DNA of 28,881 nucleotides from a virus: positions 1 to 28,881 of the IMG/VR virus record IMGVR_UViG_3300023222_000330. One strand, written 5' to 3'. Below, piece by piece: positions 1-17,352 of this stretch (position 1 is its first letter; every line of letters begins with the position of its first letter). The position numbers and the translations under genes are program-made. The notes beneath the pieces were generated by a model. The model made no database searches. It saw only the letters and a list, made by a program, of their open reading frames with translations, and was not told where the DNA came from.

Positions 1-444
1 GAGATTAACTGGCAGGTAGGCGCTGTGGGTTCGGCAACTACCTTCGAGTCAAGTGCTGAAGCCAAGCAGACCATGTCTCAGAAGAGAGGCTTGCAACCAC
101 TGCTGAAGTTCTTATCAAACCTCCTCAACATTCACGTCATCAGTAGATTCGACCCTACTTACCATTTAGAGTTTACTGGTATGGAAAGACAGCGATCGGA
201 AGACTCGGAGATAAGGGAACGAGAGGTCAAGTCTTTCCGAACAATAAATGAAGTGCGAGCAGAGTTGGGATTGAAAGAGATCGAGGGTGGCGACACAATT
301 CTAAGTGAACTCTTCTTTGGATCGCCGTCACAACGTGCTGCACTTGAAGAGGCGAAGGGTGCGGGGGCAAGACCGGCTCAGGATCCCCAAGGCGCAAGAC
401 TAACTAAGGGGCTCGTTGACGCCGAGCGGCAACTTGATCAATAA
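1..444 (+). CDS. Phage portal protein, C-terminal part (5' end outside window)
   Basis: The frame is open from the first base, so this is the tail end of a longer gene; the GTG at 25 is only the first in-frame start-like codon. The visible 147 residues match the C-terminal region of phage portal proteins: a helix with a 'GLQPLL..LSNLLN' pattern, a 'DPTYHLEFTG' strand, then the typical 'SFRTINEVRAELGL' followed by a 'GGD' turn. Portals form the dodecameric ring at the capsid vertex through which DNA is packaged and ejected, and to which the connector binds. The stop TAA at 442-444 overlaps the ATG of the next gene by one base (TAATG), which suggests translational coupling. Terminase genes would be expected upstream, outside the window. 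The family call rests on motif patterns only. Confidence 0.8.
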   Translation, partial: EINWQVGAVGSATTFESSAEAKQTMSQKRGLQPLLKFLSNLLNIHVISRFDPTYHLEFTGMERQRSEDSEIREREVKSFRTINEVRAELGLKEIEGGDTILSELFFGSPSQRAALEEAKGAGARPAQDPQGARLTKGLVDAERQLDQ

Positions 445-3161
445 TGCCCGAACTCCAAGTCCGGATTAGCAAACTTCCGTTTGACGTACTTGATTTGTGG
501 CAAACCGAAGCTCTCGTTGAATTCGAGAGAATCCGCGGGGTTGGACTAGAAGTGATAGAGCGAGATGTGTTGAACGCTCTACCAGACCAAGAAGAACAAG
601 AATTGATTGGAACCGCAACCGGGGTCCCAGAAGCAGATATAATCGACGCAGGCTTAGAAGAGAACCTCCAAAGGTCCACCAAAACCGGCGCATTGAGAAA
701 GAACGTAGACCCCTTTAAACGCCAACTTGAGCAAGCAATCAGCGACTTCGAGCGCCGCCTCGAGTTTGGAGCCCCACTGAAGCCGGCACTAGGGGAAACC
801 ACCGCCAACCTACTTCTATTGAACATGCCCATCGAGGGTGGGGAATTAAAACTCCAAAGTGGAGAAGCCAGGACAGCGAAGCTGAATGGAGAAGGGCGCG
901 AAGAAATAGTTCCACTTCTTGCGGTAGTTGGAGTTCCAACTATCGACACCCTCAAGTTACGCGACGCGCTAACGGGAAAGAGATCGACTCAACCCGTTGT
1001 TATCAAGCACCCAAAGACGACAGCTTTCACAATCATTGAAGGAGCTGAGGAGTTTCTAGCATCCAGGATAACAAGCATTCCTGCGATGCTGATGATTGTG
1101 CACCGCCCACGCGACGCTCAAGCGCTGCCTGTAAACACGGACGTGCAAGTTGACAGAGTTCCGATAGAGACGAAAGCACGAGAAGTAGTGCGAGATGTGG
1201 TTTACAAACTGCCGTCTCTTTTAGAACCATTTGGTGAACTGGCCCGCCGTTTCACAGAAGAGGACTTCACTCTACTGTTTTGGGAGCGACTCACGCCGGA
1301 AGAAGAGCGGGTTGAACAGGTGGCAGAAAATAAGGCCCAACGCCGTGCTCAGGTTTGGACTAAACTGTTTGCAGACGCGCGCGAAGCAGGGAAAGACAAC
1401 GAGGAAGCTTCAAGAATTGCACGAAATGATCCTCGTTTTAGGCGCGCCGAAGATCTTGAAGAAGCGGCGATTGATCGAAAGATCAAAGTACAAGAAAAGT
1501 GGGAGGAGAGGCGGGAAGAATTCCGTGAAGCTGCTCGCGAAAGTATTAAACTAGCAGAAGAAGACGGCATCGGCGAACAATTCAGCATTGAAGACTTGAG
1601 TCCACATCTTATTTTTCGGGAAGCAAACAAAGGTCAACAAGTGGAAGAGGAAGATCGCAGCAGAGGTTATCCGGGCGGAGCATACGAGATCGGAGAACGA
1701 GTTGAGGTCAGAAACGCTCAAGGCGAGTGGGTTCCCGGTGTAGTGAACCGGATAGACGGATTTGACTTGCGCATAAAGCTAGAAAGCGGCAGCATGCGGA
1801 TGATCTCCGATCCTACGAAAGTGAGGCAGATCACCAAATTAGACCTCGGACAAAGAGCAGGACTTGACACAGAGCTTGAAATAAGGTATAATAAGGGTGT
1901 GGAGACGAGAATAGACATACCGAAGTTCAACGTGACCCTACCAGTGGGTTCCAACTCACTGCGGATCGAGACCGAACTCGGCCCAAGCACGGCGGAAATG
2001 AATTCTACCGTGCTGACGGTTAATGAAGAGACTTGGAGACGGAACCTCGACGCAGCACTCCGCGAGCGCGATCGTCTTTTTGCAGAGGCAAAAATCAAGA
2101 CCAACAATCAGAGTTTCCGCCCGAACGCTCCGTCGGATTGTGTCAAGGAATTCTTTGAGATTCGTGGCCTTCCGACGCAACGAATTAACAAAGCATCGGG
2201 CAAACCTGCTTGCGACAAGGAAACTTTGGAAGCATTCGTGACAATGGGCGACGACCTTGCGCCGATAGTTTTAGAAGCACGCGAAGCACAAGCGAAAGTT
2301 TCGCAGCTCGAAAAGTGGGAAGAGTTTGCACTCGCCGGCGAAGTCCAATGTAATTGGAATCAACTCGGTACTCCGCACGGACGTTACTCGTGCGACAGTC
2401 CCAACTTGCAGAACAGAATTAAAGAGATTCGAGAGACAATCGAAGCTCCGCAAGGATTCAAGTTCTTGAGTCTGGATCTTGGCCAAGCAGAATATGTCAC
2501 TTGGGCCTCGCTTTCGCAGGATCCGACGCTGATTAAAGCGTTCGAAGAAGGCAAAGATTTCCACACGCAGATGTTCCAAGAAATTAAGGCAGCTGCTCCG
2601 AACTTGGATATTAAAGGCGACGAGCGGCAGGCCGGTAAAACAATTAACTTCGCGCTGCTCTACCTGATGCAGCCGTTTGTGCTCGCTAAGAAACTTGGAA
2701 TCACGGAAGCGGAAGCGCGCGAAGTAATTCAAGCTTACGAAGAGCGAGCGCCGATCGCCACAGCCTACAAGATGCGAGTGATCAGAGAGATTCAAAAGAC
2801 TGGTGTTTCTATCACGAAGTTTGGCCGAGTGCGTGAACTGTCAGAGATTACAACCGCAAAACGTGGCCAACTCCACCAGTTGACGAAAACCTTGTGGCAT
2901 CATCATAACGCTGGAACTGCTGCTGAGGTATTGAAGATCAAGCAGGTTAAATCTTGGAAGGCAATCCGAAGAGCGTTTAGCGATGAAGACGCCCGATTGG
3001 CCATTCAAATGCACGATGAAGTAATCTTCATGGTGCGGGATGAAATTCTTGAAGAAGCGACTGAATTAGCAAAGGCCGCGTTCGACGAGGTAATTCCAGG
3101 CTTCTTGCCTTTCAAGGTTGATGTCCGAACAGGACGAAACTGGCTGCAGATTTCGAAGTAG
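444..3161 (+). CDS. Family-A DNA polymerase domain fused to a large N-terminal region of unknown role
   Basis: This 905-residue protein has a clear PolA-type polymerase core at about residues 515-905. Motif A has D678, Q681 and the steric-gate E683. Motif B has R728, K732, F736 and Y740 with the same four-residue spacing as Klenow R754/K758/F762/Y766. Motif C is H857-D858-E859. A PNLQN motif lies at 653-657. Both metal-binding aspartates are present, so activity is plausible. I see no 3'-5' exonuclease motifs in the N-terminal 510 residues. That half is charged and helical (coiled-coil-like around 285-375), with an SH3/KOW-like segment near 414-463 ('YEIGERVEV...GEWVPGVV'). The gene is coupled to the portal gene by TAATG and sits in the morphogenetic operon, where a replicative polymerase is not expected. 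It could be a relocated replication gene or a virion-associated enzyme. The polymerase call is secure; the role is not. Confidence 0.9.
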   Translation: MPELQVRISKLPFDVLDLWQTEALVEFERIRGVGLEVIERDVLNALPDQEEQELIGTATGVPEADIIDAGLEENLQRSTKTGALRKNVDPFKRQLEQAISDFERRLEFGAPLKPALGETTANLLLLNMPIEGGELKLQSGEARTAKLNGEGREEIVPLLAVVGVPTIDTLKLRDALTGKRSTQPVVIKHPKTTAFTIIEGAEEFLASRITSIPAMLMIVHRPRDAQALPVNTDVQVDRVPIETKAREVVRDVVYKLPSLLEPFGELARRFTEEDFTLLFWERLTPEEERVEQVAENKAQRRAQVWTKLFADAREAGKDNEEASRIARNDPRFRRAEDLEEAAIDRKIKVQEKWEERREEFREAARESIKLAEEDGIGEQFSIEDLSPHLIFREANKGQQVEEEDRSRGYPGGAYEIGERVEVRNAQGEWVPGVVNRIDGFDLRIKLESGSMRMISDPTKVRQITKLDLGQRAGLDTELEIRYNKGVETRIDIPKFNVTLPVGSNSLRIETELGPSTAEMNSTVLTVNEETWRRNLDAALRERDRLFAEAKIKTNNQSFRPNAPSDCVKEFFEIRGLPTQRINKASGKPACDKETLEAFVTMGDDLAPIVLEAREAQAKVSQLEKWEEFALAGEVQCNWNQLGTPHGRYSCDSPNLQNRIKEIRETIEAPQGFKFLSLDLGQAEYVTWASLSQDPTLIKAFEEGKDFHTQMFQEIKAAAPNLDIKGDERQAGKTINFALLYLMQPFVLAKKLGITEAEAREVIQAYEERAPIATAYKMRVIREIQKTGVSITKFGRVRELSEITTAKRGQLHQLTKTLWHHHNAGTAAEVLKIKQVKSWKAIRRAFSDEDARLAIQMHDEVIFMVRDEILEEATELAKAAFDEVIPGFLPFKVDVRTGRNWLQISK

Positions 3162-3174
3162 AGTGGGGCGGAAG

Positions 3175-3357
3175 ATGGAAGGCACGGGGATTTATCTAGT
3201 TGGTCTCGGCGCAGCCTGGACCGGATGGTGGCTTCGAGGTGTCATGGAAAGACTACATAAGGAAAATTTGTGGCAGAGCGCCAGAGAGATTGCTGTAAAA
3301 TATCCTGAGAACGGGGAGACACAACAGGCTCTTTATGAGTTGGCGAAGCATTTCTAA
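3175..3357 (+). CDS. Small single-pass membrane protein, unknown function
   Basis: A 60-residue protein starting at ATG 3175, preceded by a purine-rich GGGGCGGAAG stretch just after the polymerase stop. The same frame is open further upstream but would overlap the polymerase gene, so the internal ATG is preferred. Residues 4-22 (IYLVGLGAAWTGWWL then RGV) form one hydrophobic segment near the N-terminus, followed by a charged helical tail. The stop TAA at 3355-3357 overlaps the next ATG (TAATG). A small membrane protein next to another one could suggest a lysis or superinfection role, but there is no specific signature and I do not assign one. Confidence 0.6.
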   Translation: MEGTGIYLVGLGAAWTGWWLRGVMERLHKENLWQSAREIAVKYPENGETQQALYELAKHF

Positions 3358-3626
3358 TGATTGAAGTGGGCGTAATCCTCTTTCTAGCCTCGCTCTTGGT
3401 AATTTCTAACCTAGACAACGCACAGCCGTGGATGCTGCTGGCCATCATTGGCCTATTCTGGGTACACTTAATGGTTGTGGTCTGGTCTTCAACGTCGAAG
3501 TTCAAAAGGATTCATTTTAAGCACGGCAACACTGAAGTGGATATGATTTCGGTGAGAGGATACGATCCGAGGGCTCGTCGATATATTCGACGGGAAGCCG
3601 CACGAGCAAGGGGATTGATTGAGTGA
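3357..3626 (+). CDS. Small two-pass membrane protein, unknown function
   Basis: An 89-residue protein with two predicted membrane spans, about residues 3-18 (EVGVILFLASLLVIS) and 24-44 (PWMLLAIIGLFWVHLMVVVW). A basic, arginine-rich C-terminal tail (RRYIRREAARAR) probably lies in the cytoplasm. The start overlaps the stop of the preceding small membrane protein, and its own stop overlaps the GTG start of the following gene by four bases, so the three are probably translated as a coupled set. Two spans with a basic tail resemble class II holins in general layout, but no lysin lies nearby, so this is not a firm call. Confidence 0.65.
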   Translation: MIEVGVILFLASLLVISNLDNAQPWMLLAIIGLFWVHLMVVVWSSTSKFKRIHFKHGNTEVDMISVRGYDPRARRYIRREAARARGLIE

Positions 3627-3805
3627 TTGACATAGGCTCTTCTGTCGAGATCAAAGAACCCCAAGGTTCAGGTAAGTGGGACTGGACAGGAAAAACAGGA
3701 CTCGTCACGGAGGTCAGCACCCACTGCTTCTCAGTGCGTCGAGACGACACCGGACAAGTTGAGAGAGATGTCAGAGAGCATTACAGAGAAATCCGACCAC
3801 GATAG
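3623..3805 (+). CDS. Small SH3/KOW-like protein
   Basis: A 60-residue protein starting at GTG 3623 (GTGA overlap with the previous stop). The sequence shows a short beta-barrel pattern: 'DIGSSVEIKEPQGSGKW', 'GKTGLVTEVS', 'CFSVRRDDTG', ending 'YREIRPR'. Proteins of this kind usually bind nucleic acid or protein partners. A similar pattern occurs inside the upstream polymerase fusion near its residues 414-463, so the two may share a fold. The 3' end overlaps the next gene by about 38 bases. The fold call is by pattern only and the function is unknown. Confidence 0.6.
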   Translation: MIDIGSSVEIKEPQGSGKWDWTGKTGLVTEVSTHCFSVRRDDTGQVERDVREHYREIRPR

Positions 3806-4070
3806 ACTTCAAGAAGAAGTCGCAGATGCTCTCACTGAGCCGTCCTGGATTTCGGTTCAAGACGCCCTACCCTCTATAATCGAGACGTTTAGAGACGGGA
3901 CGAATTATCATGGTTTGGTAGATGCGTGGTATGACCAGTTTGAAAAACACAATCGTCGTGAATCCGCACTATGGACAAGTGATTCGACGGAGCCGAGATG
4001 GGTGGTGAACGGCGAGGCGCAGAAGGTTCCACCCACCCACTGGAGGTACTTGCCAGGACCGCCCATGTAA
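3768..4070 (+). CDS. DUF551-like protein
   Basis: A 100-residue protein from ATG 3768; a TTG at 3759 is an alternative start giving three more residues. It carries the two ends of the DUF551 family pattern: 'WISVQDALP' at residues 27-35 and 'THWRYLPGPP' at 90-99, with aromatic residues between. DUF551 proteins are common in phages and prophages, are usually short, and have no established biochemical role. The start lies inside the preceding gene in another frame. Located in the cargo-like stretch between portal and MuF. Confidence 0.65.
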   Translation: MSESITEKSDHDRLQEEVADALTEPSWISVQDALPSIIETFRDGTNYHGLVDAWYDQFEKHNRRESALWTSDSTEPRWVVNGEAQKVPPTHWRYLPGPPM

Positions 4071-4073
4071 CAG

Positions 4074-4082
4074 TGGTATAAT
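4074..4082 (+). promoter_or_regulatory. Possible extended -10 promoter element
   Basis: The sequence TGGTATAAT is a perfect TGnTATAAT extended -10 box in the 17-base gap between two genes. There is no good -35 hexamer at the usual 17-base spacing (a TTGCCA lies 21 bases upstream). Transcription would begin at or just before ATG 4088, giving a nearly leaderless message. An AAGG at 4083-4086 is very close to the ATG. It may be chance. Confidence 0.25.
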
Positions 4083-4087
4083 AAGGT

Positions 4088-4546
4088 ATGCCAAAAGATC
4101 AAAGGAAAGCATGGGATGCTGACAAGATGGGGTACGGTAAGCACACGTACACCCACGTCGATCCTGATGCAATCAACGTTGAAGACTTCGCGGTGGACTT
4201 GCGCGGAGAGCAGCAACACAGAGGTGACGTTCGAGAGGAGAACACCGCTTATAATGAGCGAGAGCCAGCAAATGAGGTCACACTTGACCTTCTATCTAAG
4301 ATTGGAACTGTGTTTTCAACCGGCGCCCAGGGTATGTCTGGTGTGTGGAAGGTGACTGGAATGCCAGTCGTCCATTCTCCTGAAGTCTTTTGTCGTGCCA
4401 CTCAAATGGGTGACGATGACGCTCTTTTAGGAGAAGAGCAAGAGCTCTCATGCACGGAATTAGGATGTGCTGTTGACAAAGATAACAAGTTTAGACAGGT
4501 GACAGGAAAAATTCTGCAAAAGGGTAAACACCAGAATCTTGGATGA
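4088..4546 (+). CDS. Hypothetical protein, 152 residues
   Basis: I do not recognise this protein. It begins MPKDQRKAWD, is hydrophilic in its first 65 residues and more compact afterwards, with no membrane segment. Cysteines occur at several positions in the C-terminal half (residues near 102, 121 and 126), with too little regularity to claim a metal site. It follows a 17-base gap containing an extended -10-like box, one of few places in this operon where genes do not overlap. Its TGA stop overlaps the upstream reach of the next ORF. Confidence 0.6.
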   Translation: MPKDQRKAWDADKMGYGKHTYTHVDPDAINVEDFAVDLRGEQQHRGDVREENTAYNEREPANEVTLDLLSKIGTVFSTGAQGMSGVWKVTGMPVVHSPEVFCRATQMGDDDALLGEEQELSCTELGCAVDKDNKFRQVTGKILQKGKHQNLG

Positions 4547-4559
4547 TGTGGTTTGGATA

Positions 4560-4748
4560 ATGCAGTCAAGTCTATGGGCCTTTTCTCAGGACAGAGCTGC
4601 ACGAGATCTCCCCAGGTGGACTAAGGCTTGGTGGAGAAAGGTTCTGGAGATCTATCTTAGTCGAGGTGGTAAGGTGCGAGAAGATGAGCATATTACACAT
4701 GAATTCGAAGGCTCAGACCCAGATAATCGACTTATTGACGTGGGTTAA
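4560..4748 (+). CDS. Small hypothetical protein
   Basis: A 62-residue ORF if ATG 4560 is used; TTG 4539 would add seven residues and overlap the previous gene. It is rich in tryptophan and basic residues early ('WTKAWWRKVLEIYLSRGG') and acidic at the end. No family is recognised. Its 3' end overlaps the next candidate gene by 65 bases, more than elsewhere in the operon, so one of the two starts or one of the two genes may be wrong. Confidence 0.4.
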   Translation: MQSSLWAFSQDRAARDLPRWTKAWWRKVLEIYLSRGGKVREDEHITHEFEGSDPDNRLIDVG

Positions 4749-5043
4749 GGAGCGAGGCCTCTCTGAGGAGACCGAACGGTGGTTATGCCCATTTACCAAG
4801 CGAATACGAGCCCGGGCACAGATGCTACCTCATCAGGCACGGACAGCTCTTTCTATTCCAACACTGTCTTCGTTGAGATCGAAAGGGATGAACGTCGAGA
4901 TAGAAGACCTCGGCGAGATTCAAGTGGTGCGATCGCACCGATTCCTTGGAGCGGGTGTAGGAGAAGCCGAGGCATTGCTAAGCATGCTGTACCAGCTCCG
5001 CCACGCCGACAATTCCGTAAGATTTTACGGTAATGTTGCTTGA
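4684..5043 (+). CDS. Hypothetical protein before the MuF gene
   Basis: A 119-residue ORF from ATG 4684, preceded by GAGAAG. The second half reads well as protein ('MNVEIEDLGEIQVV', then 'LGAGVGEAEALLSMLYQL'), with many codons beginning in G or A as in neighbouring genes. It overlaps the MuF start by 11 bases. A second frame is also open here: from ATG 4785 to TAA 5031-5033 ('MPIYQANTSPGTDATSSG...'). That frame meets the MuF ATG in a TAATG junction, but becomes arginine-rich and unconvincing after about residue 35. The early part of that frame plus the late part of this one would make one plausible protein, so a frameshift or sequence error is possible. Function unknown. Confidence 0.45.
   Translation: MSILHMNSKAQTQIIDLLTWVKERGLSEETERWLCPFTKRIRARAQMLPHQARTALSIPTLSSLRSKGMNVEIEDLGEIQVVRSHRFLGAGVGEAEALLSMLYQLRHADNSVRFYGNVA
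5015..5030 (+). promoter_or_regulatory. Small hairpin just before the MuF start codon
   Basis: CCGTAA and TTACGG form a perfect 6-bp inverted repeat around a 4-base loop (GATT), ending two bases before ATG 5033. It lies where a ribosome binding site would be, and no good Shine-Dalgarno sequence is visible. It may therefore limit independent initiation so that MuF depends on translation from upstream. This role is inferred. Confidence 0.3.
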
Positions 5044-6043
5044 CCGTGCTGCCGAAAGACGGGTCATGGAGATTACGCAGGCGGTAGTTTCGTCATTCTC
5101 TGTGTTCGCAATCGGCCGTGAATTGGGCCAGACAGTCGTCGAATCAGTTTCCTCCGCCCTTGGCTTAACAGCCGCTGGAAGACTAACCTTCCTCGAGTCA
5201 TCCTATATTGCTGGAAAGGCAGCGAGCATATTGGGTACTGACGCTCTCCGAAGAATGACTGAGGCAGAGCTGGTTACGTGGATAACTGAGAACAACATCG
5301 TTCTGACCGCTGCCGACCGAATCGTTATCGGTCAGATGAAAAGTAACACTGAGAGGTGGCTACAGGGGCGTTCGGAGGCATGGCAAGTCAGGTTGCGCGG
5401 GGAGATGGCGATAGCAGACACCGCTTGGAGAGCCACTCTCCAGAGTACGACTTTTGCTGATGCGGGTGCCCTTGCAGCGGCGCGGAGTTCGGCGCTGAGG
5501 AATCTCCTCAACAGAATGGGAGATAGCTCTGAACTCTGGCAGGCTGACATTGATCGGTTGGTGCAATCAGAGATGAATGCTTACTTCCAAACTGGACAAG
5601 TAGCGCTAGTTCCGGGAGACGAGCTAGTCTATAAGGTACCAAGAGGCTCTGCCTGCCCTCATTGCCTACGTATCTGTGTAAATGTGAACGGGACTTTCAA
5701 GAGGTTCAGGCTGGATGATGTAAGAGGTAATAGCAACGTAGGAACGCCAGCAATCGCATGGCAGTTCACGATCGGTCCTATTCATCCGTACTGCTATTGT
5801 GTTCTTTACAGGGAAGAAGATAAGGATCTTGGAGCGAGTGAGGCGCTGGCACGGGCGAAGGCTGAGTCTCTGGGTAAGAGCCTGATGAAGAACTCCTGTG
5901 GGATTTCAGACGACCCAGATCTGCTGTTCGAAGAGCAGGAAGGAGATCCCGATCATAGTCCACGTCCGGCACACTATACTGCTATGATCAATGCTGTAAA
6001 AAAGACGTACGGAGACTCTCTCCCTAGATTGCCAGACGAGTAA
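5033..6043 (+). CDS. MuF-like minor head / head morphogenesis protein
   Basis: A 336-residue protein with the C-terminal signature of phage Mu gpF/SPP1 gp7-type minor head proteins: a 'RLVQSEMNAYFQTG' helix (about 175-188), then C208-x2-C211-x3-C215 and H251-P-x-C254-x-C256, a probable metal-binding pair of clusters. The first 160 residues are mostly helical. Such proteins bind the portal inside the procapsid and are often carried in the virion in a few copies. They normally sit directly after the portal gene, so the 4.6 kb separation is unusual. The ATG at 5033 overlaps upstream reading frames; ATG 5066 is a possible later start. No toxin or other effector domain is recognised at the C-terminus. 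Confidence 0.8.
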   Translation: MLLDRAAERRVMEITQAVVSSFSVFAIGRELGQTVVESVSSALGLTAAGRLTFLESSYIAGKAASILGTDALRRMTEAELVTWITENNIVLTAADRIVIGQMKSNTERWLQGRSEAWQVRLRGEMAIADTAWRATLQSTTFADAGALAAARSSALRNLLNRMGDSSELWQADIDRLVQSEMNAYFQTGQVALVPGDELVYKVPRGSACPHCLRICVNVNGTFKRFRLDDVRGNSNVGTPAIAWQFTIGPIHPYCYCVLYREEDKDLGASEALARAKAESLGKSLMKNSCGISDDPDLLFEEQEGDPDHSPRPAHYTAMINAVKKTYGDSLPRLPDE

Positions 6044-6095
6044 CTCTGTCTTAACGTTCGTTGGTTGGTTGTACGATTACACTCGAAACCAACAA

Positions 6096-6896
6096 ATGAA
6101 TCTCGATAATCTACCAGATTTAGACGCCGCCCTGGACCTTCCAGATCAGCCCCTTTTGGGGTTGAATTTGATGCTGAAGGCGATCGAGCCAGAGAGCGAA
6201 GATGCTCCATGGCGATTCGCTGGCATCGCCTCTGATGAGTCAGAGGATGTTGAGGGTGACAAAATTCTCCGAAAGGCCCTCGATGTATCTTACGCAGCTC
6301 AGCGTGGGTATGTGAACTGGGATCATAGCCGGAAGCCAGCTGATCAAATCGGCTTCTTAACCAAGTGTGAAATCCTGAACAAGGATAGAATTCAAGAGCT
6401 GAGTAAGGCTCTGGGGAACATTCCGGAGACTGCTACTGTTTATGTAGAGGGCGAGCTGTATCGGCATATGCCCAATGCAAAGGAGACCTTCGCTCTCCTT
6501 AAGTCAGTGCCGCCTGGTGCGGTTGGGCCTGGACTCTCTCTCGATGGCGCCGTAGCACGAGATCGCGCCAACGGAGATGTAGTCAAGGCTTTCGTCAGAG
6601 GCGTGGCAATCACACCAGCGCCGGCACACCCCAGTACAGTAGCTCGCTTGAAGAAGTCCCTACTCGCCTATGAGGCGATTGCAGGACTTGAAGGTCAGCT
6701 CCCCTCAGATTTATCGTTATCCATCGCCCGTGATGTGGTGACAGAACTGAAGAAGCATGCGGACATTGAACAACCGCCTGCTCTTACTCACGATGAAGCG
6801 GTCTTGTTTGTACTTCGAAAAAGACCGCATTTTACATACGAGCTTGCGAGTAAGCTCGTTCAGTACACCATGCAGAAACTGGAAAGAGGAGCTTAG
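6096..6896 (+). CDS. Prohead protease
   Basis: A 266-residue protein from ATG 6096 (TTG 6069 would add nine residues). It shows the pattern of caudoviral prohead serine proteases. 'FAGIASDESEDVEGDKIL' is followed by 'RGYVNWDHSRKP', where H77 is the likely catalytic histidine. 'GPGLSLDGAV' then supplies the likely nucleophile S148, and 'FVRGVAITPAPAHPST' is the closing strand typical of the family. The enzyme cleaves scaffold and capsid precursors during maturation. Its place directly before the scaffold-like and capsid genes fits. The last 80 residues are a helical extension. No strong ribosome binding site precedes the chosen start, so the exact start is uncertain. Confidence 0.8.
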   Translation: MNLDNLPDLDAALDLPDQPLLGLNLMLKAIEPESEDAPWRFAGIASDESEDVEGDKILRKALDVSYAAQRGYVNWDHSRKPADQIGFLTKCEILNKDRIQELSKALGNIPETATVYVEGELYRHMPNAKETFALLKSVPPGAVGPGLSLDGAVARDRANGDVVKAFVRGVAITPAPAHPSTVARLKKSLLAYEAIAGLEGQLPSDLSLSIARDVVTELKKHADIEQPPALTHDEAVLFVLRKRPHFTYELASKLVQYTMQKLERGA

Positions 6897-6899
6897 CTC

Positions 6900-7568
6900 A
6901 TGAGTGGCGAAGACAAAGATACCAAGACACCAGAAACCAAGACTGATGGTGCGGTAACTGAAGAGGATCTGCTCAAGAGCCTCTCCGAACTCGAAGGCAA
7001 GAAGCCCGAAGAGGAAAAGAAGACACCTGAAGAGTTGAAGGTGGAGACAGCCGCTCTCGAGAAGAGCGCTGCCGACAAAATCAAGGACGAAGCCTCCGAG
7101 GACTTGAAGAAAGCCCTCGACGTCAGTTCTGCTCTTTCCGAAATCACGAGCTTGTTGGGTGCCCATATGGACGACGGTCTGGAGCAACTCCAGAAGTCAG
7201 TCGCCTCGGCCGCCGAGCGAGACGTCAAGATCATCGCTGTCCTGGAACTCTTCAAGAAGAGCCTTGAGGAGATGAAGGAGACCATCGCTGCATTCGGTGG
7301 TCAGCCGGCCAAGAAGCCCGAAGCGAAGGTAACCACCGACGCGAAGGACGTTCTCGAGAAGAAAGCCGAAGGAGGCGATCTCGACGGCGAGAAGGCGAAG
7401 ATCAGCCGTCCGGAGGTGCTTCAAACCATGGAGCGTCTTGTCAAGAGCTGCGAAGAAGAGGATGACAAGCGGCGCTGGATCAATGCTGCAGTCACGTTTG
7501 AATCAACCGGCCAGATTAGCAACAAGGACCTCTTAGAGGTCCAGAGTGAGTTGGCCAAAGCCGCTTAG
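6900..7568 (+). CDS. Scaffold-like protein
   Basis: A 222-residue, very charged protein rich in Glu, Lys, Asp and Ala, predicted largely helical and coiled-coil, with no cysteine until the C-terminal region. Composition, size and position between protease and major capsid protein are those of a scaffolding protein, which fills the procapsid and is removed on maturation. The start ATG 6900 has a good AGGAG at 6887-6891. The call rests on position and composition, since scaffolds share little sequence. Confidence 0.65.
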   Translation: MSGEDKDTKTPETKTDGAVTEEDLLKSLSELEGKKPEEEKKTPEELKVETAALEKSAADKIKDEASEDLKKALDVSSALSEITSLLGAHMDDGLEQLQKSVASAAERDVKIIAVLELFKKSLEEMKETIAAFGGQPAKKPEAKVTTDAKDVLEKKAEGGDLDGEKAKISRPEVLQTMERLVKSCEEEDDKRRWINAAVTFESTGQISNKDLLEVQSELAKAA

Positions 7569-7597: not shown

Positions 7598-8971
7598 ATG
7601 TTCGAGCAGATGCTCACAAACGCTGACGGCTTCGGTGAGGCGACTATTGCTGAACTAGCCGAGCTCCGAAAGGCGCTCGAAATCGGTACCAGCCAGCCTG
7701 TCACCGGATTCGGATTCGATGCACTACGAGTAGAGTCGCTGGAGTCGACGCTCAAACTGCTCACTTACAGTGCGCAACACGTCAGGTTGTGGAACCAGAT
7801 CCCCAAGCAGGAAGCGTTCTCGACGGTTGAAGAGTACAACCGCTTAATCACGTACGGTACCGACGGAGGTGGCTTCGTTCCGTCAGGCGCCCTACCGGAA
7901 GAAGAGGACACTCTGTACGAGCGTGCTGACCAGAAGGTCAAGTACATCGGCTCGACGCGATCGGTCCATCACCCGGCAACGCTGGTTCGAACAATTCCAC
8001 CCGATCTCATCGGGCAAGAGACGCAGAATGGCGCTCTCTGGATCATGGGCAAGGTCAATCGCGCCCTCTATTACGCGGATGAGGCTGTCATTCCGCTGGA
8101 GTTTACCAGCCTGACCCAGCAGATCATCGCTGGCGGCGGTAACGTCTTTGATCTCGCAGGTGCGGGTCTTGACGGTGACACTCTGAATGACGCTGCTCAG
8201 ATCATCGTGGACAACTTCGGTATTCCACAGAAGATGTTCTCCAACTCGAAGGTCTTCACTGACTTTGACAAAGCCTTCCACGACTCGCAACGTTGGGCCA
8301 GCCCAGGTGCGACGGTCGGTATCGGCGGCACCCCGCTGTCAGGATGGCGGACGCTGGTCGGTGAGATTGGCTTCGAGCCGGATGTCTTCGTAACTCGCGG
8401 CAGCGAGCCGCCTACCTCTCAAACGAACCAGAAGGCTCCGAATCCGCCAGCTCTGTCGGCAAGTGGTATCGGCGCGAATGCGGCCTCGAAGTTCGTCGCG
8501 GCAGATGCGGGAGACTACATCTACCAGGTATCGGCGATCAACAGCTTCGGCGAGTCGGCTGCATCGGCGGCAACAGCAGCTCAATCACTGGCAGCTGGCC
8601 AGTCGGTTGATATCTCCATTGCGGATGGCGGCGGAACGTTCCCGGCAACGGGCTACAAGATCTACCGCACCGAGGTGGATGGCACGCAGACCTTCTTCAC
8701 CAACCTGTCTATCCCCAGAGCGAAGGTTGGCGGCGCGCCCAGTTCGCCGACGGTCTTTACGGATGTCAACGAGTGGCGTCCTCGTACGACAATCGGGTTA
8801 GTCCTCGACATGACGAACCAGAGCTTGAGCTTCAAGCAGCTGGCTCCGATGATGAAGATGAACCTCGCAGTCGTATCGCCCGCGATCCGCTGGATGCAGT
8901 TGCTCTACGGTACTCCGATCGTCTACGCTCCCAAGAAGAACGTAGTGATTAAGAATATCGGCAACATCTAG
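7598..8971 (+). CDS. Major capsid protein with apparent Ig/FN3-like insertion
   Basis: A 457-residue protein right after the scaffold and before a strong terminator, with an excellent ribosome site (AGGAGAAGGG). The N-terminal part ('ESTLKLLTYSAQHVRLWNQIPKQ', 'GGFVPSGALPEEED', then 'RSVHHPATLVRTI') and the last 50 residues ('MNLAVVSPAIRWMQLLYGTP') have the look of HK97-fold capsid proteins that keep an uncleaved N-arm. Residues about 268-391 differ: small-residue-rich strands such as 'GDYIYQVSAINSFGESAAS' and 'GYKIYRTEVDGTQTFFTNL' match the FN3/Ig-like beta-sandwich type found as surface decorations on phages. The insert sits between 'FVTRGSEPP' and 'EWRPRTTIGLVLDM'. The capsid call is from context plus pattern; the insert type is inferred from strand patterns. 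Confidence 0.8.
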   Translation: MFEQMLTNADGFGEATIAELAELRKALEIGTSQPVTGFGFDALRVESLESTLKLLTYSAQHVRLWNQIPKQEAFSTVEEYNRLITYGTDGGGFVPSGALPEEEDTLYERADQKVKYIGSTRSVHHPATLVRTIPPDLIGQETQNGALWIMGKVNRALYYADEAVIPLEFTSLTQQIIAGGGNVFDLAGAGLDGDTLNDAAQIIVDNFGIPQKMFSNSKVFTDFDKAFHDSQRWASPGATVGIGGTPLSGWRTLVGEIGFEPDVFVTRGSEPPTSQTNQKAPNPPALSASGIGANAASKFVAADAGDYIYQVSAINSFGESAASAATAAQSLAAGQSVDISIADGGGTFPATGYKIYRTEVDGTQTFFTNLSIPRAKVGGAPSSPTVFTDVNEWRPRTTIGLVLDMTNQSLSFKQLAPMMKMNLAVVSPAIRWMQLLYGTPIVYAPKKNVVIKNIGNI

Positions 8972-11481: not shown

Positions 11482-11964
11482 ATGAAGGATCTGTTCACAG
11501 CGGAGCAAGTCAACGTTCAGCAAGGACTTGACTTGGTCCAACTCCAATTGGGCTCAAACAAGATTCGGCTGTACTATCAGACAGTCTTCAAGATCTGCTC
11601 CAGCCTACAGGGAGCCTCCAAGTTAGCAATGCAACATGAAGGGGTAAACGCCTCTTTGTGGGCTAAACTGGCGGTTTACGATAGTACTGACGTCGGTGTC
11701 CCCTTGCATTTTGAGTACAGGCGTTCAGGGAACGTTGCTAACCTGACTAACTGGAAGGTAGCGTTCGAAGGAGCACTAGTTGTTCTCACGTTGGATGACC
11801 TTACGGCTAAGTTCCATTACACTGATGCTGCTAAATTGACTGTTTGGCTGAGGCGAGCAGCCAAACAAGCGAAGAATTGGTCAGGCGATAGGAGTCGACA
11901 GTGGAGCACGTTTGCCCACTTATCCGACGCTGAGGAGAATGACAAGATCGCCTATTCCACGTAG
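11482..11964 (+). CDS. Hypothetical protein, 160 residues
   Basis: I do not recognise this protein. It starts at ATG 11482 after a short gap, lacks membrane segments, and has a mixed composition with strand-like and helix-like stretches ('LVQLQLGSNKIRLYY', 'TDAAKLTVWLRRAAKQAKNW'). It is the last gene before a strong terminator and so probably the end of the 9049-11964 transcription unit. Confidence 0.65.
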   Translation: MKDLFTAEQVNVQQGLDLVQLQLGSNKIRLYYQTVFKICSSLQGASKLAMQHEGVNASLWAKLAVYDSTDVGVPLHFEYRRSGNVANLTNWKVAFEGALVVLTLDDLTAKFHYTDAAKLTVWLRRAAKQAKNWSGDRSRQWSTFAHLSDAEENDKIAYST

Positions 11965-12003
11965 GCCGGGTCGTCAGCCGTAACCACCGGGTTTATAGAT
12001 GAA

Positions 12004-12378: not shown

Positions 12379-15300
12379 ATGGCCGACGTCACTATCCTTG
12401 ATGCTGCTGCTTCCGGTAGTGCAGATGGCGATACATTCGCGGTTTCAGCGGGTGTCGATCGCGGCCTAATAATCGGTTACCAGGGCGAGGGTAGTACTGG
12501 AACACCGAATGGCGTGACCCTTACTTGGGGCGGCCAGGCGATGACGAACATCGGGACTGTCTTCGTTAACGGCATCGGTTGCGAGGTCACCCTTTTCCTA
12601 CTTCTTGACGCTGGTATTGCTGCAGCATCCAGCACTACGATGGCATTTACCGGTGAGCAAGCCTCCTTCACATGGCATGCGATCAGCTTTGAGAATGTCG
12701 ATCAGACGGGCGGTGCTACTACTGTCCCCGAGCAGCAAGAGGATTCGACTGGAGCGTCTACTCCAAACCCGCTGACCGGTGCCGATATCACTGCTGGAGA
12801 TGGTGCGGCTGTTGTTGCTCTCGCTGGTGTTGGCAACTCCACGAGCGCGACCTGGCAATCGGATCTTACCGAGCAAACTGATCAAACAGTCGGGACAACG
12901 GGCGGTTCGATGGCGACGGGCCTCTTCGCGACCGGCCAGAGTGTTACCGTCGAAGCAACTTGGGCAGACCAGAACCGCGCGGTTGTTGTCTCGGTCGAGC
13001 TGGCTCCATCTGCACCGGGACAGATAGCAGCAACCCCAGACCTGGCAATCACAGCAGCCGCTGATCTAGAAGCTCAAGGTAAGTTGGATGCAGCCATAGC
13101 CATGGTCTTTGCGGCTACTGCCGATCTAAGACATCAAGGTCGAACAGACGCCTCCGCGCTTCTATCGATAACGGCAGCAGCCGACTTGAATGCGTTAGGA
13201 GCCCTAGCAGCCACAGCTACATTGGGGATATCTGCACTCGCCAGAATGCGAGATGCTAATGCGGAGAGTTGGTACAAGACGGGGGAATTTGCCACTCCAG
13301 CGTCGGGTCCAACTGTTGTAGATATTACCGACAAGGGTCGGAACCCGTTCGGTATCCATTTCTCCTGGACAGACAACACCGCCGACCAGACGATCCAGCC
13401 TGACGCCCAGCTCGGGCACGGATTCAGCGACGGAACGAACCATCGGGCCGTGGTCCACAACGCCGAGGACGGTGCCTCGAATAATTTCCGGCAGTCGATG
13501 ATCGACGCCTGCATATTTATCGTCGATCCAACAGATGATTCGGTCCTGGTCGAGGCTACTGTTACTTTCCAGGCGACGACTTTTACTGTTGTTTATACAA
13601 CGGTCGCGGCAGGTTTCCGGCTTCATTGGGAGCTTTGGGGTGGAGACGGTGCTGCGGTTGTAGCCGATGTTGGTGCCGACGCTGCGCCTGTCACCGGACT
13701 TGGCATGGCGAACGGCGACCTCCTCTTGGGCTTCACGTCCGGCGAGCAGTTCCCAGCATCAAGTCAGTTCGCTTACCAATCCTACGGAGCTGCTCAGGAT
13801 ACCCCCGCCGGCATCAATCAGTGGTGCCTGTTCAAGTACATGGGCGACAATGACGAGGACGAGCAGGGATCAGCGCTGACCTCAACTGACTTTATGGGTC
13901 AGTACGATGTCGACTTCGCTGACTGGACGATCCAGATCACATCGATCACCGGCGACGGCTTCAACTGGAACGGCAGCAACGGTGACCACTTCGCCTATAT
14001 GCTGCTCGATCTTAGCAGGACACTGGTTGATGTCGGCACGATGACGAAAACGACGACCGTGCCGTCACCGGGTACACATACGTTCCCCGACCTTGGATTC
14101 ATACCGGCTGGCTACGCAGTCGCATCGGCGAGTGACGTAAACGAAGACCGAGACGTGAACCAAAACATGCGCGGCTCGTTTGGGTCATTCGATGGTGCTG
14201 GCACAGGTCACTCGATCTACGCGATTACGACCCAGGACGAGAATACGCCGCGCGATTCTTACAGCTCGTCGATTAACGTCATAAACATGGGTCAAGATTT
14301 CGGCGGCGCGAACATTCAAAGCATGGGCGAAGCGCAGCCGATCTCGAACTCGACGCCCCAGATTATCTTCGATCCGAACACGAACCAGCCGGAGATCATT
14401 GGTTATTACGCTATAGAATATCGACAAGTTCCCCTGGTTGCGGATCCACAGCTCACGATCACAGCAGCCGCAGATCTAAATGCTCAAGGTAAACTAGATG
14501 CCACACCCGATCTGGCAATTACAGCTGTAGCTGATCTAAACGCTACTGGTGCACTAGCAGCAACTCCAGACCTGGCAATAACAGCCACAGCAGACCTAGA
14601 AGGGCAAGTCGGTGCGATATCAGCCACTCCAGATCTAGCGATAACGGCAGCAGCTGACCTGAAAGCAAAAGGTGCTCTGGCTGCTACGGCTGACCTGGTG
14701 TTTGCTGCAGCAACTGCCCTATTGCGGGGACTAGGTGCATTAGGGGCAAGCGCTGCCCTGACTTTCGCCGCAGCGGCTGATCTCGAAGCAACCGGCGCCC
14801 TGAATGCTTCACCAGCCCTTGCAATCACAGCTGCTGCTGACCTCGAAGCAACCGGAGCTTTATCAGCCACTGCTGCCCTGGCCATTACTGCGACAGCAGA
14901 CCTGAAGGGTAGGGGTGCACTGAGTGCTTCACCAGCCCTGGTCTTTGCGTTAACGGCAGATCTTCGACAGGCAGCTGCTCAGATCTCTGCTTCGCCAGCT
15001 TTAGCTATCACAGCAACTGCGGATCTAAAGGCAACCGGCGCCCTCAACGCAGCCCCAGCACTAGCTATAACAGCGGCAGCAGACCTGAATGCGACAGGTG
15101 CACTGAATGCTACTCCAGATCTAGCGATTACCGCTGCTGCGGATCTGAACGCCACGGGAGCGCTAGCTGCCACTCCAGACCTGGCGATAACAGCCGCAGC
15201 GGACTTGAACGCCACGGGAGCGTTGAACGCGACTGCCGCGCTAGTCTTTGCTGCCACGGCTGACCTGCAAGGAGCAGAAGGTGCTATAACAGCTTCTCCA

Positions 15301-17352
15301 GCCCTTGCAATCACAGCGGCAGCTGATCTCGAAGCAACTGGTGCACTGGACGCGACACCTGATTTGGTATTCGCAGTAGCGGCCGATCTGACTCAACAGC
15401 CAGTCCAGTTAACGGCCTCGCCAGATCTAGCGATCACTGCTGCCGCTGACCTCAATGCCACTGGTGCTCTAAACGCAACCGCAGCTCTAGCTATAACAGC
15501 TGCAGCTGATCTAAACGCAACCGGCGCCCTATCTGCTACTCCAGACCTCGCTATCACAGCGACGGCTGATCTAGAGGCAATCGGAGCCCTATCTGCTACT
15601 CCAGATCTGGCGATAACTGCAACTGCTGATCTTAAAGCCACGGGTGCTTTAGCAGCGACACCGGATCTATTGATTGCAGTTACAACCGCTGATCTGAATG
15701 ACGTTGGTGAGGGTCAAGTCTCGGCTACAGCTGACCTGACGATAACAGCGGCAGCTGACCTTAAGGCAACGGGCAAGCTTGATGCTTCACCAGACTTGGC
15801 AATCACTGCAGCGGCTGACCTTGAGGCAACCGGTGCTCTAGCAGCAACCCCAGACCTGGTTTTCGCACTCACTGCTGACCTGACTCAAGCCCCGGCTCAG
15901 ATCTTTGCCACTCCAGACCTGGCTATCACAGCAGCAGCAGATCTGGAGGCAACCGGCGCCTTAAGCGCTGCCCCACTTCTGGCCATCACGGCAGCTGCTG
16001 ACCTGAATGCTATTGGTGCTTTAGCAGCGACTCCGGACTTAGTCTTTGCGATCACAGCCGACCTCGAAGCGATCGGCGCCCTATCAGCCTCTCCAGATCT
16101 GGCTATCACGGCAACTGCTGATCTTGAAGCGATTGGGGCTTTGTCAGCAACGCCACTTCTGGCTATCACAGCTGCTGCAGATCTTGAAGCGATTGGTGCC
16201 TTAAGCGCTGCCCCGCTTCTGGCTATCACAGCTGCTGCAGACCTGAATGCGACTGGTGCCCTGGCAGCAACAGCAGCCCTTGCCTTCTCAGTCACTGCTA
16301 ACGCTCAAGCAATGCAGATGGCGACTGCGTCGCCGCAACTTACCATAACTGCGACAGCTGACCTTGAGGCAACTGGCGCTCTAGCAGCCACACCAGACCT
16401 GGCTATCACGGCAACAGCTGATTTAACTCAGGTACCGCAACAACTAACAGCCACTCCAGATCTAGCCATAACAGCCACCGCTGACCTTGAGGCAACGGGT
16501 GCCCTGTCAGCCACTCCAGATCTAGCCATAACAGCCACCGCTGACCTTGAGGCAACGGGTGCCCTGTCAGCTACAGCTGCGTTAGCGATCACAGCAGCGG
16601 CAGACCTGGTTGGAATCGGTACTCTCGCAGCGACGCCTGATCTAGTCTTCGCACTCACTGCGGACCTAACTCAGGTACCGCAGCAGTTAACGGCTTCACC
16701 GGACCTTGCGATTACAGCTGCTGCTCAGCTGAATGCTCTTGCTCTGATTACAGCCTCTCCGGATCTAGTCTTTGCGCTAACTGCTGCTCTACAGGATGTG
16801 ACTGGCGGTCAGATAGGGGCCTCACCGGACTTAGCGATCACAGCAGCGGCAGACCTGGTTGGAATCGGTACTTTATCAGCGTCCCCAGATCTGGCAATAA
16901 CGGCAACGGCTGATTTAGAAGGGACTGGTGCCTTAGCAGCTACTCCTGATTTAGTGTTCTCAGTAGTTGCCGACATATCACAGCTGCCAGTTCAGTTAAC
17001 GGCCTCACCCGCCCTTGCGATCACAGCAGCGGCAGATCTCGAAGCAAGAGGCAAGTTAGACGCCACTCCAGATCTGGTGTTTGCTCTCACAGCAGATCTG
17101 GTGGGTATGTTCCAAGTATCTGCCTCTCCAGCACTCACGTTTACTCAGACAGCAGACTTGAGAGGACGAGGAGTCCTATCAGCTTCGCCAGCTTTGACAA
17201 TTACAGTTGTAAAGGCTGCCTTGTTTGATCAAGGAGCGAACAGAACAATTCACTTCGCAGGTAACGTACAAGCAGTTCCAGGTGTTATGAATGTGGTTGG
17301 AGATGCTGACTTCATAGTTCCAGTAGGCAGCACGGATAGGGTAATTACTTAG
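12379..17352 (+). CDS. Giant repeat protein, probable neck/head fibre or other surface fibre
   Basis: A 1657-residue protein in five parts. Residues 1-213 are a beta-rich domain ('GVTLTWGGQAMTNIGTV' pattern seen in many phage surface proteins). Residues about 214-290 hold four degenerate repeats. Residues about 293-690 are a non-repeat, probably beta-sandwich region. Residues about 691-1610 hold about 46 repeats of 20-23 residues with consensus 'PDLAITATADLEATGALSAT'. A 45-residue C-terminal tail follows. The repeats are almost free of charge apart from the Asp/Glu of 'DLE' and contain no Cys, Trp, His or Tyr, which suggests a long, regular beta-solenoid or fibrous shaft. A variant unit with 'VFALTADLTQ.PQQLTAS' recurs irregularly. 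Most long phage fibres are encoded after the tape measure, but this gene lies among neck genes. Function is inferred from shape and context. Confidence 0.75.
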   Translation: MADVTILDAAASGSADGDTFAVSAGVDRGLIIGYQGEGSTGTPNGVTLTWGGQAMTNIGTVFVNGIGCEVTLFLLLDAGIAAASSTTMAFTGEQASFTWHAISFENVDQTGGATTVPEQQEDSTGASTPNPLTGADITAGDGAAVVALAGVGNSTSATWQSDLTEQTDQTVGTTGGSMATGLFATGQSVTVEATWADQNRAVVVSVELAPSAPGQIAATPDLAITAAADLEAQGKLDAAIAMVFAATADLRHQGRTDASALLSITAAADLNALGALAATATLGISALARMRDANAESWYKTGEFATPASGPTVVDITDKGRNPFGIHFSWTDNTADQTIQPDAQLGHGFSDGTNHRAVVHNAEDGASNNFRQSMIDACIFIVDPTDDSVLVEATVTFQATTFTVVYTTVAAGFRLHWELWGGDGAAVVADVGADAAPVTGLGMANGDLLLGFTSGEQFPASSQFAYQSYGAAQDTPAGINQWCLFKYMGDNDEDEQGSALTSTDFMGQYDVDFADWTIQITSITGDGFNWNGSNGDHFAYMLLDLSRTLVDVGTMTKTTTVPSPGTHTFPDLGFIPAGYAVASASDVNEDRDVNQNMRGSFGSFDGAGTGHSIYAITTQDENTPRDSYSSSINVINMGQDFGGANIQSMGEAQPISNSTPQIIFDPNTNQPEIIGYYAIEYRQVPLVADPQLTITAAADLNAQGKLDATPDLAITAVADLNATGALAATPDLAITATADLEGQVGAISATPDLAITAAADLKAKGALAATADLVFAAATALLRGLGALGASAALTFAAAADLEATGALNASPALAITAAADLEATGALSATAALAITATADLKGRGALSASPALVFALTADLRQAAAQISASPALAITATADLKATGALNAAPALAITAAADLNATGALNATPDLAITAAADLNATGALAATPDLAITAAADLNATGALNATAALVFAATADLQGAEGAITASPALAITAAADLEATGALDATPDLVFAVAADLTQQPVQLTASPDLAITAAADLNATGALNATAALAITAAADLNATGALSATPDLAITATADLEAIGALSATPDLAITATADLKATGALAATPDLLIAVTTADLNDVGEGQVSATADLTITAAADLKATGKLDASPDLAITAAADLEATGALAATPDLVFALTADLTQAPAQIFATPDLAITAAADLEATGALSAAPLLAITAAADLNAIGALAATPDLVFAITADLEAIGALSASPDLAITATADLEAIGALSATPLLAITAAADLEAIGALSAAPLLAITAAADLNATGALAATAALAFSVTANAQAMQMATASPQLTITATADLEATGALAATPDLAITATADLTQVPQQLTATPDLAITATADLEATGALSATPDLAITATADLEATGALSATAALAITAAADLVGIGTLAATPDLVFALTADLTQVPQQLTASPDLAITAAAQLNALALITASPDLVFALTAALQDVTGGQIGASPDLAITAAADLVGIGTLSASPDLAITATADLEGTGALAATPDLVFSVVADISQLPVQLTASPALAITAAADLEARGKLDATPDLVFALTADLVGMFQVSASPALTFTQTADLRGRGVLSASPALTITVVKAALFDQGANRTIHFAGNVQAVPGVMNVVGDADFIVPVGSTDRVIT
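13021..13248 (+). repeat. First block of 60-bp coding repeats (about 4 units)
   Basis: Four degenerate copies of the 20-residue unit, beginning near CCAGACCTGGCAATC and ending before a non-repeat domain. The stretch ATCACAGCAGCCGC at 13048 recurs at 14458 at the start of the main repeat block. Confidence 0.85.
14452..17220 (+). repeat. Main array of 60-bp coding repeats (about 46 units)
   Basis: Tandem units, most of exactly 60 bp, some of 63-69 bp, all in frame. The encoded consensus is P-D-L-A-I-T-A-x-A-D-L-x-A-x-G-A-L-x-A-T. Codon choice varies widely between units, so protein identity exceeds DNA identity. Near-exact DNA copies exist locally (16448-16571, and a 42-base match between 16582-16623 and 16831-16872). 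Confidence 0.95.
16448..16571 (+). repeat. Exact recent tandem duplication of one 60-bp unit
   Basis: Bases 16448-16511 and 16508-16571 are identical over 64 bases, so one unit was copied recently compared with the strongly diverged codons of the other units. Confidence 0.95.

Follow-up and report, generated by a model that had tools for sequence, protein, structure and literature searches.

A portal-coupled gene with a family A DNA polymerase core

We analyzed 28,881 bases of viral DNA, a fragment and not a complete genome (IMG/VR record IMGVR_UViG_3300023222_000330, hereafter the window). At positions 444-3161 of its plus strand the window carries an intact 905-codon open reading frame, with an ATG start and no internal stop, which joins a novel N-terminal region to a family A DNA polymerase (PolA) core and directly follows the portal gene of a head operon. 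A perfect sigma-70 promoter lies inside this reading frame. The positions of these features are collected in Table 1.

The original prediction, made from the sequence alone, described a family A core whose motifs A, B and C are intact, and both profile searches and alignment agree with it. Pfam DNA_pol_A covers residues 547-901 (E=3.1e-58; 198 bits against a curated cut-off of 34.3), and the catalytic residues are all intact: D678 in motif A, R728, K732, F736 and Y740 in motif B, and H857-D858-E859 in motif C. Residues 507-902 align to positions 489-887 of the 889 positions in the NCBIfam DNA polymerase I profile, at a score of 188 bits, far under the equivalog cut-off of 720. Because this alignment starts at position 489, the exonuclease half of DNA polymerase I (Pol I) is absent and has been replaced. 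The thumb, residues 525-636, aligns to residues 494-604 of Bst Pol I with a root-mean-square deviation (rmsd) of 1.9 over 108 residues. DNA synthesis is the predicted activity of the core.

Two positions of the core are changed throughout the family. The glutamine equivalent to Klenow Q849 is kept in 14 of 14 PolA comparators and replaced (A823) in all five family members, and the position of Klenow N845 is H819 in the same five. In the Klenow enzyme, N845 and Q849 make contacts to the primer terminus or template. Altered kinetics are a plausible consequence of these substitutions.

The gene is under purifying selection in every part. The ratio of nonsynonymous to synonymous substitution rates (dN/dS) is mostly 0.06-0.18 over the 905 codons, with a maximum of 0.24, and 0.06-0.13 in the core. 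These low values indicate that both halves of the gene are maintained.

The N-terminal half is novel

Residues 1-509 have no match in Pfam, NCBIfam or the PDB sequences, and their sole PHROG match is at E=0.068. The N-terminal region also has no tblastn match among 50,697 phage records and no match in the genome collection. The earlier description of a novel half of about 510 residues therefore holds. Profile searches of residues 1-509 likewise found no 3'-5' exonuclease, as first noted, with a very divergent domain still possible in residues 1-257, which lack a confident model. The same kind of search found no MuF, portal or known polyvalent or packaging domain fused within residues 1-509.

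AlphaFold2 models were poor, with a mean predicted local distance difference test score (pLDDT) of 45 for the full-length protein and 48 for the N-terminal region, a result of the very small number of close sequences; for residues 1-257 there was no confident model. Long helices were modeled at residues 242-373. From codon 258 onward the pLDDT was mostly 64-90, and residues 258-377 were confidently helical. The stretch in this half that had been called coiled-coil-like is modeled as these long helices. The segment earlier described as SH3/KOW-like is supported, as residues 410-467 model as a Tudor/SH3-like barrel, with the barrel proper at 411-464. Over 54 residues it superimposes on the Tudor domain of PHF1 at rmsd 1.6 (VIA-align Z 8.9) in a model of medium confidence (pLDDT about 57-73), and this fold likeness shows no function. 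DNA or protein binding is the probable role of the helical and Tudor-like N-terminal region.

Just downstream of the polymerase gene, the window encodes a free-standing small protein of 60 residues that looks SH3-like (P0002, 3623-3805). We considered a sequence link between P0002 and the internal Tudor-like barrel, and the similarity was too weak to use.

The gene keeps its place in the head operon

We found three full-length homologues of the polymerase gene (79-83% identity) and partial ones, all on short contigs from a few metagenomes. In the window, the TAA stop of the portal gene overlaps the ATG of the polymerase gene by one base (TAATG). The same one-base overlap is present in six of the six contigs that show the junction (the window and contigs L002, L003, L004, L005 and L006), so that the coupling first noticed in the window is a shared trait. 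Full-length portal homologues are encoded in L002, L003, L005 and L006, and the one in L003 matches Pfam Phage_portal at E=1.6e-16. Where the contigs reach, the gene order is terminase, portal, polymerase gene, a gene of ~150-160 codons with no assigned function, and head genes; L005 departs from this order downstream. These data indicate that the homologues keep the portal-coupled place in the head operon.

The head context itself is supported by independent profile matches to the portal, the head maturation protease and the major head protein. The gene at 5033-6043 had been called a MuF gene. That label stems from a Cys/His pattern seen by eye. No MuF profile matches the gene, and the likeness of its product to proteins from the head region of SPO1-like phages is weak (E=1e-11).

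Contig L005 (IMGVR 3300023443_001259, positions 1-7525) carries an exact 144-nucleotide terminal direct repeat, which is located inside the polymerase gene. Read as a 7,381-bp circle, L005 would hold only the polymerase gene, the gene for the ~160-residue protein, a 74-residue open reading frame, both terminase genes and the portal gene. At the join, ~250 bp occur in no other fetched locus, and the 74-residue frame overlaps the start of the small terminase gene. The circular junction was not found in any other contig. An assembly artefact is one possible explanation of the circle; a deletion form or a satellite is another.

A conserved sigma-70 promoter lies inside the gene

A routine scan for promoters found TTGACA-N17-TATAAT between the Tudor-like barrel and the polymerase core. 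This 12/12 match stands at the same place in five of five homologues (the window, L002, L003, L004 and L005). We saw no further 12/12 site across about 210 kb of sequence fetched from this and related phages, and none arose in 30 Markov copies of the window. Synonymous shuffling kept all 12 promoter bases in only 1.6-3.2% of shuffles per sequence. Synonymous distances in the polymerase part are 1.0-1.7, yet the promoter is unchanged. It also survives amino acid changes (in L004, F replaces L and G replaces R), and its third codon encodes T, K or I among the homologues while its first base is always A. Over codons 401-490, the four full-length genes all share the same codon at 0.61-0.71 of eligible sites, whereas the figure for the gene as a whole is 0.34. 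A test for RNA structure in the promoter region gave no signal (z=0.03).

An in-frame GTG (codon 486; ATG in L002) lies 7 nucleotides past the -10 hexamer in five of five homologues. Since this start codon sits at the expected transcription start, a leaderless core of 420 residues is possible, and transcription is predicted to begin near codon 486. A perfect, conserved promoter inside the gene suggests that the core is expressed separately, under a promoter of host type. Such expression was not predicted by the earlier idea of a polymerase made late with the head.

Other possible control elements were observed nearby. A second near-invariant nucleotide block lies upstream of the internal promoter at window 1738-1830 and may be a control region or the trace of recent recombination. 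A weaker promoter-like site spans the start of the polymerase gene, at window 416-445 (10/12) and at 8840 in L003 and 6091 in L005 (11/12). Just before the terminase genes, L003 encodes at 4688-5290 a small protein with a sigma-70 region 4 match, a candidate late-transcription factor.

Table 1. Features of the polymerase gene and neighboring head genes, with positions in the window
Feature	Position	Strand	Basis
Portal gene, 3' end, cut by contig start	25..444	+	PHROG portal matches, E=1e-16
Fusion gene, novel N-terminal region plus PolA core	444..3161	+	905 codons; profiles, homologues, selection
N-terminal region, codons 1-485, lineage-specific	444..1898	+	No family, PDB-sequence, phage or genome match
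Long-helix segment, codons 242-373	1167..1562	+	AlphaFold2 helices
Tudor/SH3-like beta-barrel, codons 410-467	1671..1844	+	Structural alignment of medium-confidence model
Perfect sigma-70 promoter TTGACA-N17-TATAAT, intragenic	1864..1892	+	12/12 match, conserved
In-frame GTG, codon 486, candidate leaderless start of 420-residue core	1899..1901	+	Start codon conserved; start use predicted
Family A DNA polymerase core (thumb, palm, fingers), codons 507-905	1962..3161	+	Pfam, NCBIfam, thumb alignment
Motif A, catalytic Asp D678	2475..2477	+	Alignment with 14 PolA proteins
Motif B, R728...K732...F736...Y740	2625..2663	+	Same 14-protein PolA alignment
WHHHNAGTAAE, codons 818-828, site of the N845/Q849 equivalents in other PolA	2895..2927	+	PolA alignment
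Motif C, H857-D858-E859	3012..3020	+	Alignment with 14 PolA proteins
MuF-like gene	5033..6043	+	Cys/His pattern by eye only; no profile match
Head maturation protease	6069..6896	+	phrog_1028, E=6.8e-14
Major head protein	7598..8971	+	phrog_752, E=2.5e-84

Elsewhere in the window, a 1,657-residue protein with dozens of 'SPDLAITAAADLEATGAL'-type repeats is encoded between the head and tail genes (12379-17352). Rfam and tRNA searches of the window found none.

Related phages and hints of packaging

G001 (IMGVR 3300042049_000003) is a 72.6 kb distant relative whose terminase (TerL) shows 54% identity. It has no polymerase between the portal gene and the next shared gene. Its PolA, which bears an exonuclease, belongs to a replication module that also encodes helicase, primase, clamp and RecA (gene names in G001 were read from translations). 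Scans for a replication module found no contig of the window's phage group that extends into one. In a tree of PolA cores, the window's polymerase and its homologues form an isolated long branch, with no specific grouping with the G001 PolA or with bacterial Pol I. The branch position selects neither of two candidate origins, a relocated G001 PolA or a captured bacterial Pol I. Two loci reached through a chance peptide pattern, L007 and L008, were set aside: their PolA is of the ordinary kind, with an exonuclease, and lies in a replication cluster. Within G001 (L013 3584-5578; L018, L019 and L020), the terminase gene has an inserted intein-like segment and the PolA has an insert. The same genome carries many ankyrin-repeat genes and a valyl-tRNA synthetase-like gene.

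InPase-type pyrophosphatase genes lie upstream of the terminase genes in L003 (3493-4257) and L055 (record G002, 11607-11978), and the InPase family also occurs in minor head and virion proteins. The SPO1-like Lysinibacillus phage LysYB1 has a related portal (34% identity) and a related MuF-like protein. Directly before the LysYB1 portal gene lies the gene for an unannotated 872-residue protein with a C-terminal PARP catalytic domain (135493-138111; L042 4494-7112). Because this protein adjoins the portal, a large enzyme fusion can hold the neighboring place in a relative. We found no relation between the PARP protein and the N-terminal region of the window's polymerase, and the portal-neighboring place in SPO1 and an Exiguobacterium phage showed no recognizable catalytic domain of this kind. 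As evidence of packaging, the InPase gene and the PARP fusion are only hints; packaging and injection are possible.

A nested gene with two products is the preferred reading

We tentatively favor a nested gene, in which a portal-coupled long form is accompanied by a free polymerase core made from its own promoter; this is our leading interpretation, held at somewhat less than an even chance. The 905-residue long product would be translated together with the portal and would join an exonuclease-less Pol I-type core to the helical and Tudor-like region. Host RNA polymerase would start at the strong consensus sigma-70 promoter before the core and produce a shorter mRNA. From this mRNA the core of ~420 residues would probably be translated alone, beginning at the GTG or ATG at or next to the transcription start or at a later in-frame start. 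The short form would synthesize DNA inside the cell, for replication, gap filling or repair, and would not depend on the late programme. Through the long form, a polymerase would be tied to the portal and head, where it could act on DNA at packaging or entry.

Several points weigh against this reading. There is no clear Shine-Dalgarno sequence before codon 486, and initiation of the short form would therefore have to be leaderless or of some other kind. The low synonymous divergence around codons 401-500 could stem from recombination between strains. The five homologues come from a narrow phage group and few metagenomes and are not fully independent. The promoter was scored against the sigma-70 consensus; when genome contigs were searched with TerL, no provirus or host emerged, and the host consensus may differ. 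Finally, the changed Q849 and N845 equivalents could weaken the enzyme.

Alternatively, the genes downstream (small proteins, MuF-like, protease and capsid) may be what the internal promoter serves, in which case no short polymerase need be made. Any transcript would indeed continue into those genes, and the missing ribosome site before codon 486 is in agreement with this. However, the promoter lies ~1.26 kb before the end of the polymerase gene, between the barrel and the core, and the start codon behind it is kept in every homologue, which makes this explanation rather unlikely in our judgment. An ordinary intracellular polymerase relocated into the head operon would also explain a promoter that fits expression apart from the head genes. 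Here the protein would be the main or an accessory enzyme of the phage for replication or repair, the N-terminal region would be a processivity or DNA-binding module, and the place would have no virion meaning. The core is closest to cellular Pol I, and polymerase swapping and extra divergent PolA are known in several phage groups (PMC11348598). Against relocation, eight of the eight annotated phage PolA loci that we compared lie among replication or nucleotide-metabolism genes, the replicative PolA of G001 keeps its exonuclease and its place in the replication module, and the overlap of portal stop and polymerase start is kept in every contig showing the junction. We consider relocation unlikely. 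A decayed or structural use, in which the polymerase fold forms a DNA-binding part of the head or packaging machinery with little or no catalysis, would account for the family-wide replacement of the Q849 and N845 equivalents and for the long isolated branch. The catalytic carboxylates and motif B residues are nevertheless intact and conserved, and with purifying selection on the core we regard this use as very improbable.

The long form may instead be packaged via its N-terminal region and injected, in an N4-like manner, and then fill ends or gaps, repair DNA or start replication. The portal coupling and the conserved place in the head operon favor packaging, the upstream InPase gene would fit packaged DNA synthesis, and a SPO1-like relative has its PARP-domain protein beside the portal. 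The polyvalent-protein literature, in the passages covered, regards enzymes fused in these settings as probable packaged effectors (PMC5512222). However, a position in the head operon is no proof of packaging by itself, the N-terminal region has no known packaging domain and no relation to the PARP protein, and the internal promoter implies that a product is made apart from the head operon. We rate packaging as a serious but still unlikely explanation, and prefer the nested gene, which accounts for more of the evidence. The two ideas could also be combined: the long form would be a virion-packaged, portal-held and injected DNA polymerase that acts at entry, and the internal promoter would supply the free core as the intracellular enzyme. 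This fuller version is quite unlikely.

Comparison with known systems

Phage DNA polymerases are usually encoded in replication modules. The window's polymerase shares with bacterial Pol I (PRK05755/TIGR00593; Taq and Bst large fragments) the core from profile position 489, the thumb and motifs A-C. It differs from bacterial Pol I in that unrelated sequence replaces the 5'-3' and 3'-5' exonuclease half, in the changed Q849 and N845 equivalents and in its location in a phage head operon. The PolA of G001 is likewise a family A polymerase, from a phage of the same distant group, but it resides in a replication module, keeps its exonuclease and shows no specific grouping with the window's enzyme in the tree. 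Our literature search, which had partial coverage, turned up no tailed phage reported to carry a DNA polymerase in its virion. To our knowledge, a packaged and injected DNA polymerase would be the first of its kind in tailed phages.

Some Caudoviricetes encode an extra divergent PolA, divPolA1 or divPolA2, without an active 3'-5' exonuclease (Yutin et al. 2024, PMC11348598). The window's protein resembles these in being a phage PolA without a recognizable 3'-5' exonuclease, and divPolA2 also has an unrelated N-terminal domain (PMC11348598). In contrast to both, it has a normal thumb, a strong PolA profile match and a place adjoining the portal gene. We rejected membership of divPolA2, since the usual thumb is present and there is no sequence match to AUR84708. 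Membership of divPolA1 was rejected as well: the 905-residue query matched only the regular PolA of MW353176 and not the weak second PolA at the start of that record.

The window's protein is also similar to polyvalent and MuF-fused packaged enzymes, as described in the passages covered of Iyer et al. (2017, PMC5512222), in being a large enzyme fusion beside portal and head genes with an InPase gene upstream. It differs from them in lacking a fused MuF, portal or known polyvalent domain. The words 'DNA polymerase' appear only three times in that paper, and the places covered describe no packaged family A polymerase (PMC5512222). The N4 virion RNA polymerase is a demonstrated virion protein and an RNA polymerase, according to the parts covered of PMC4496689. 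The likeness to N4 lies in the proposed logic only, a family A-related polymerase in the head. If our reading is correct, the arrangement is new: a polymerase coupled to the portal, without a recognizable proofreading domain, with a large novel region and with a perfect promoter of its own. It opens the question of whether tailed-phage particles ever carry DNA synthesis in the way that N4 carries RNA synthesis.

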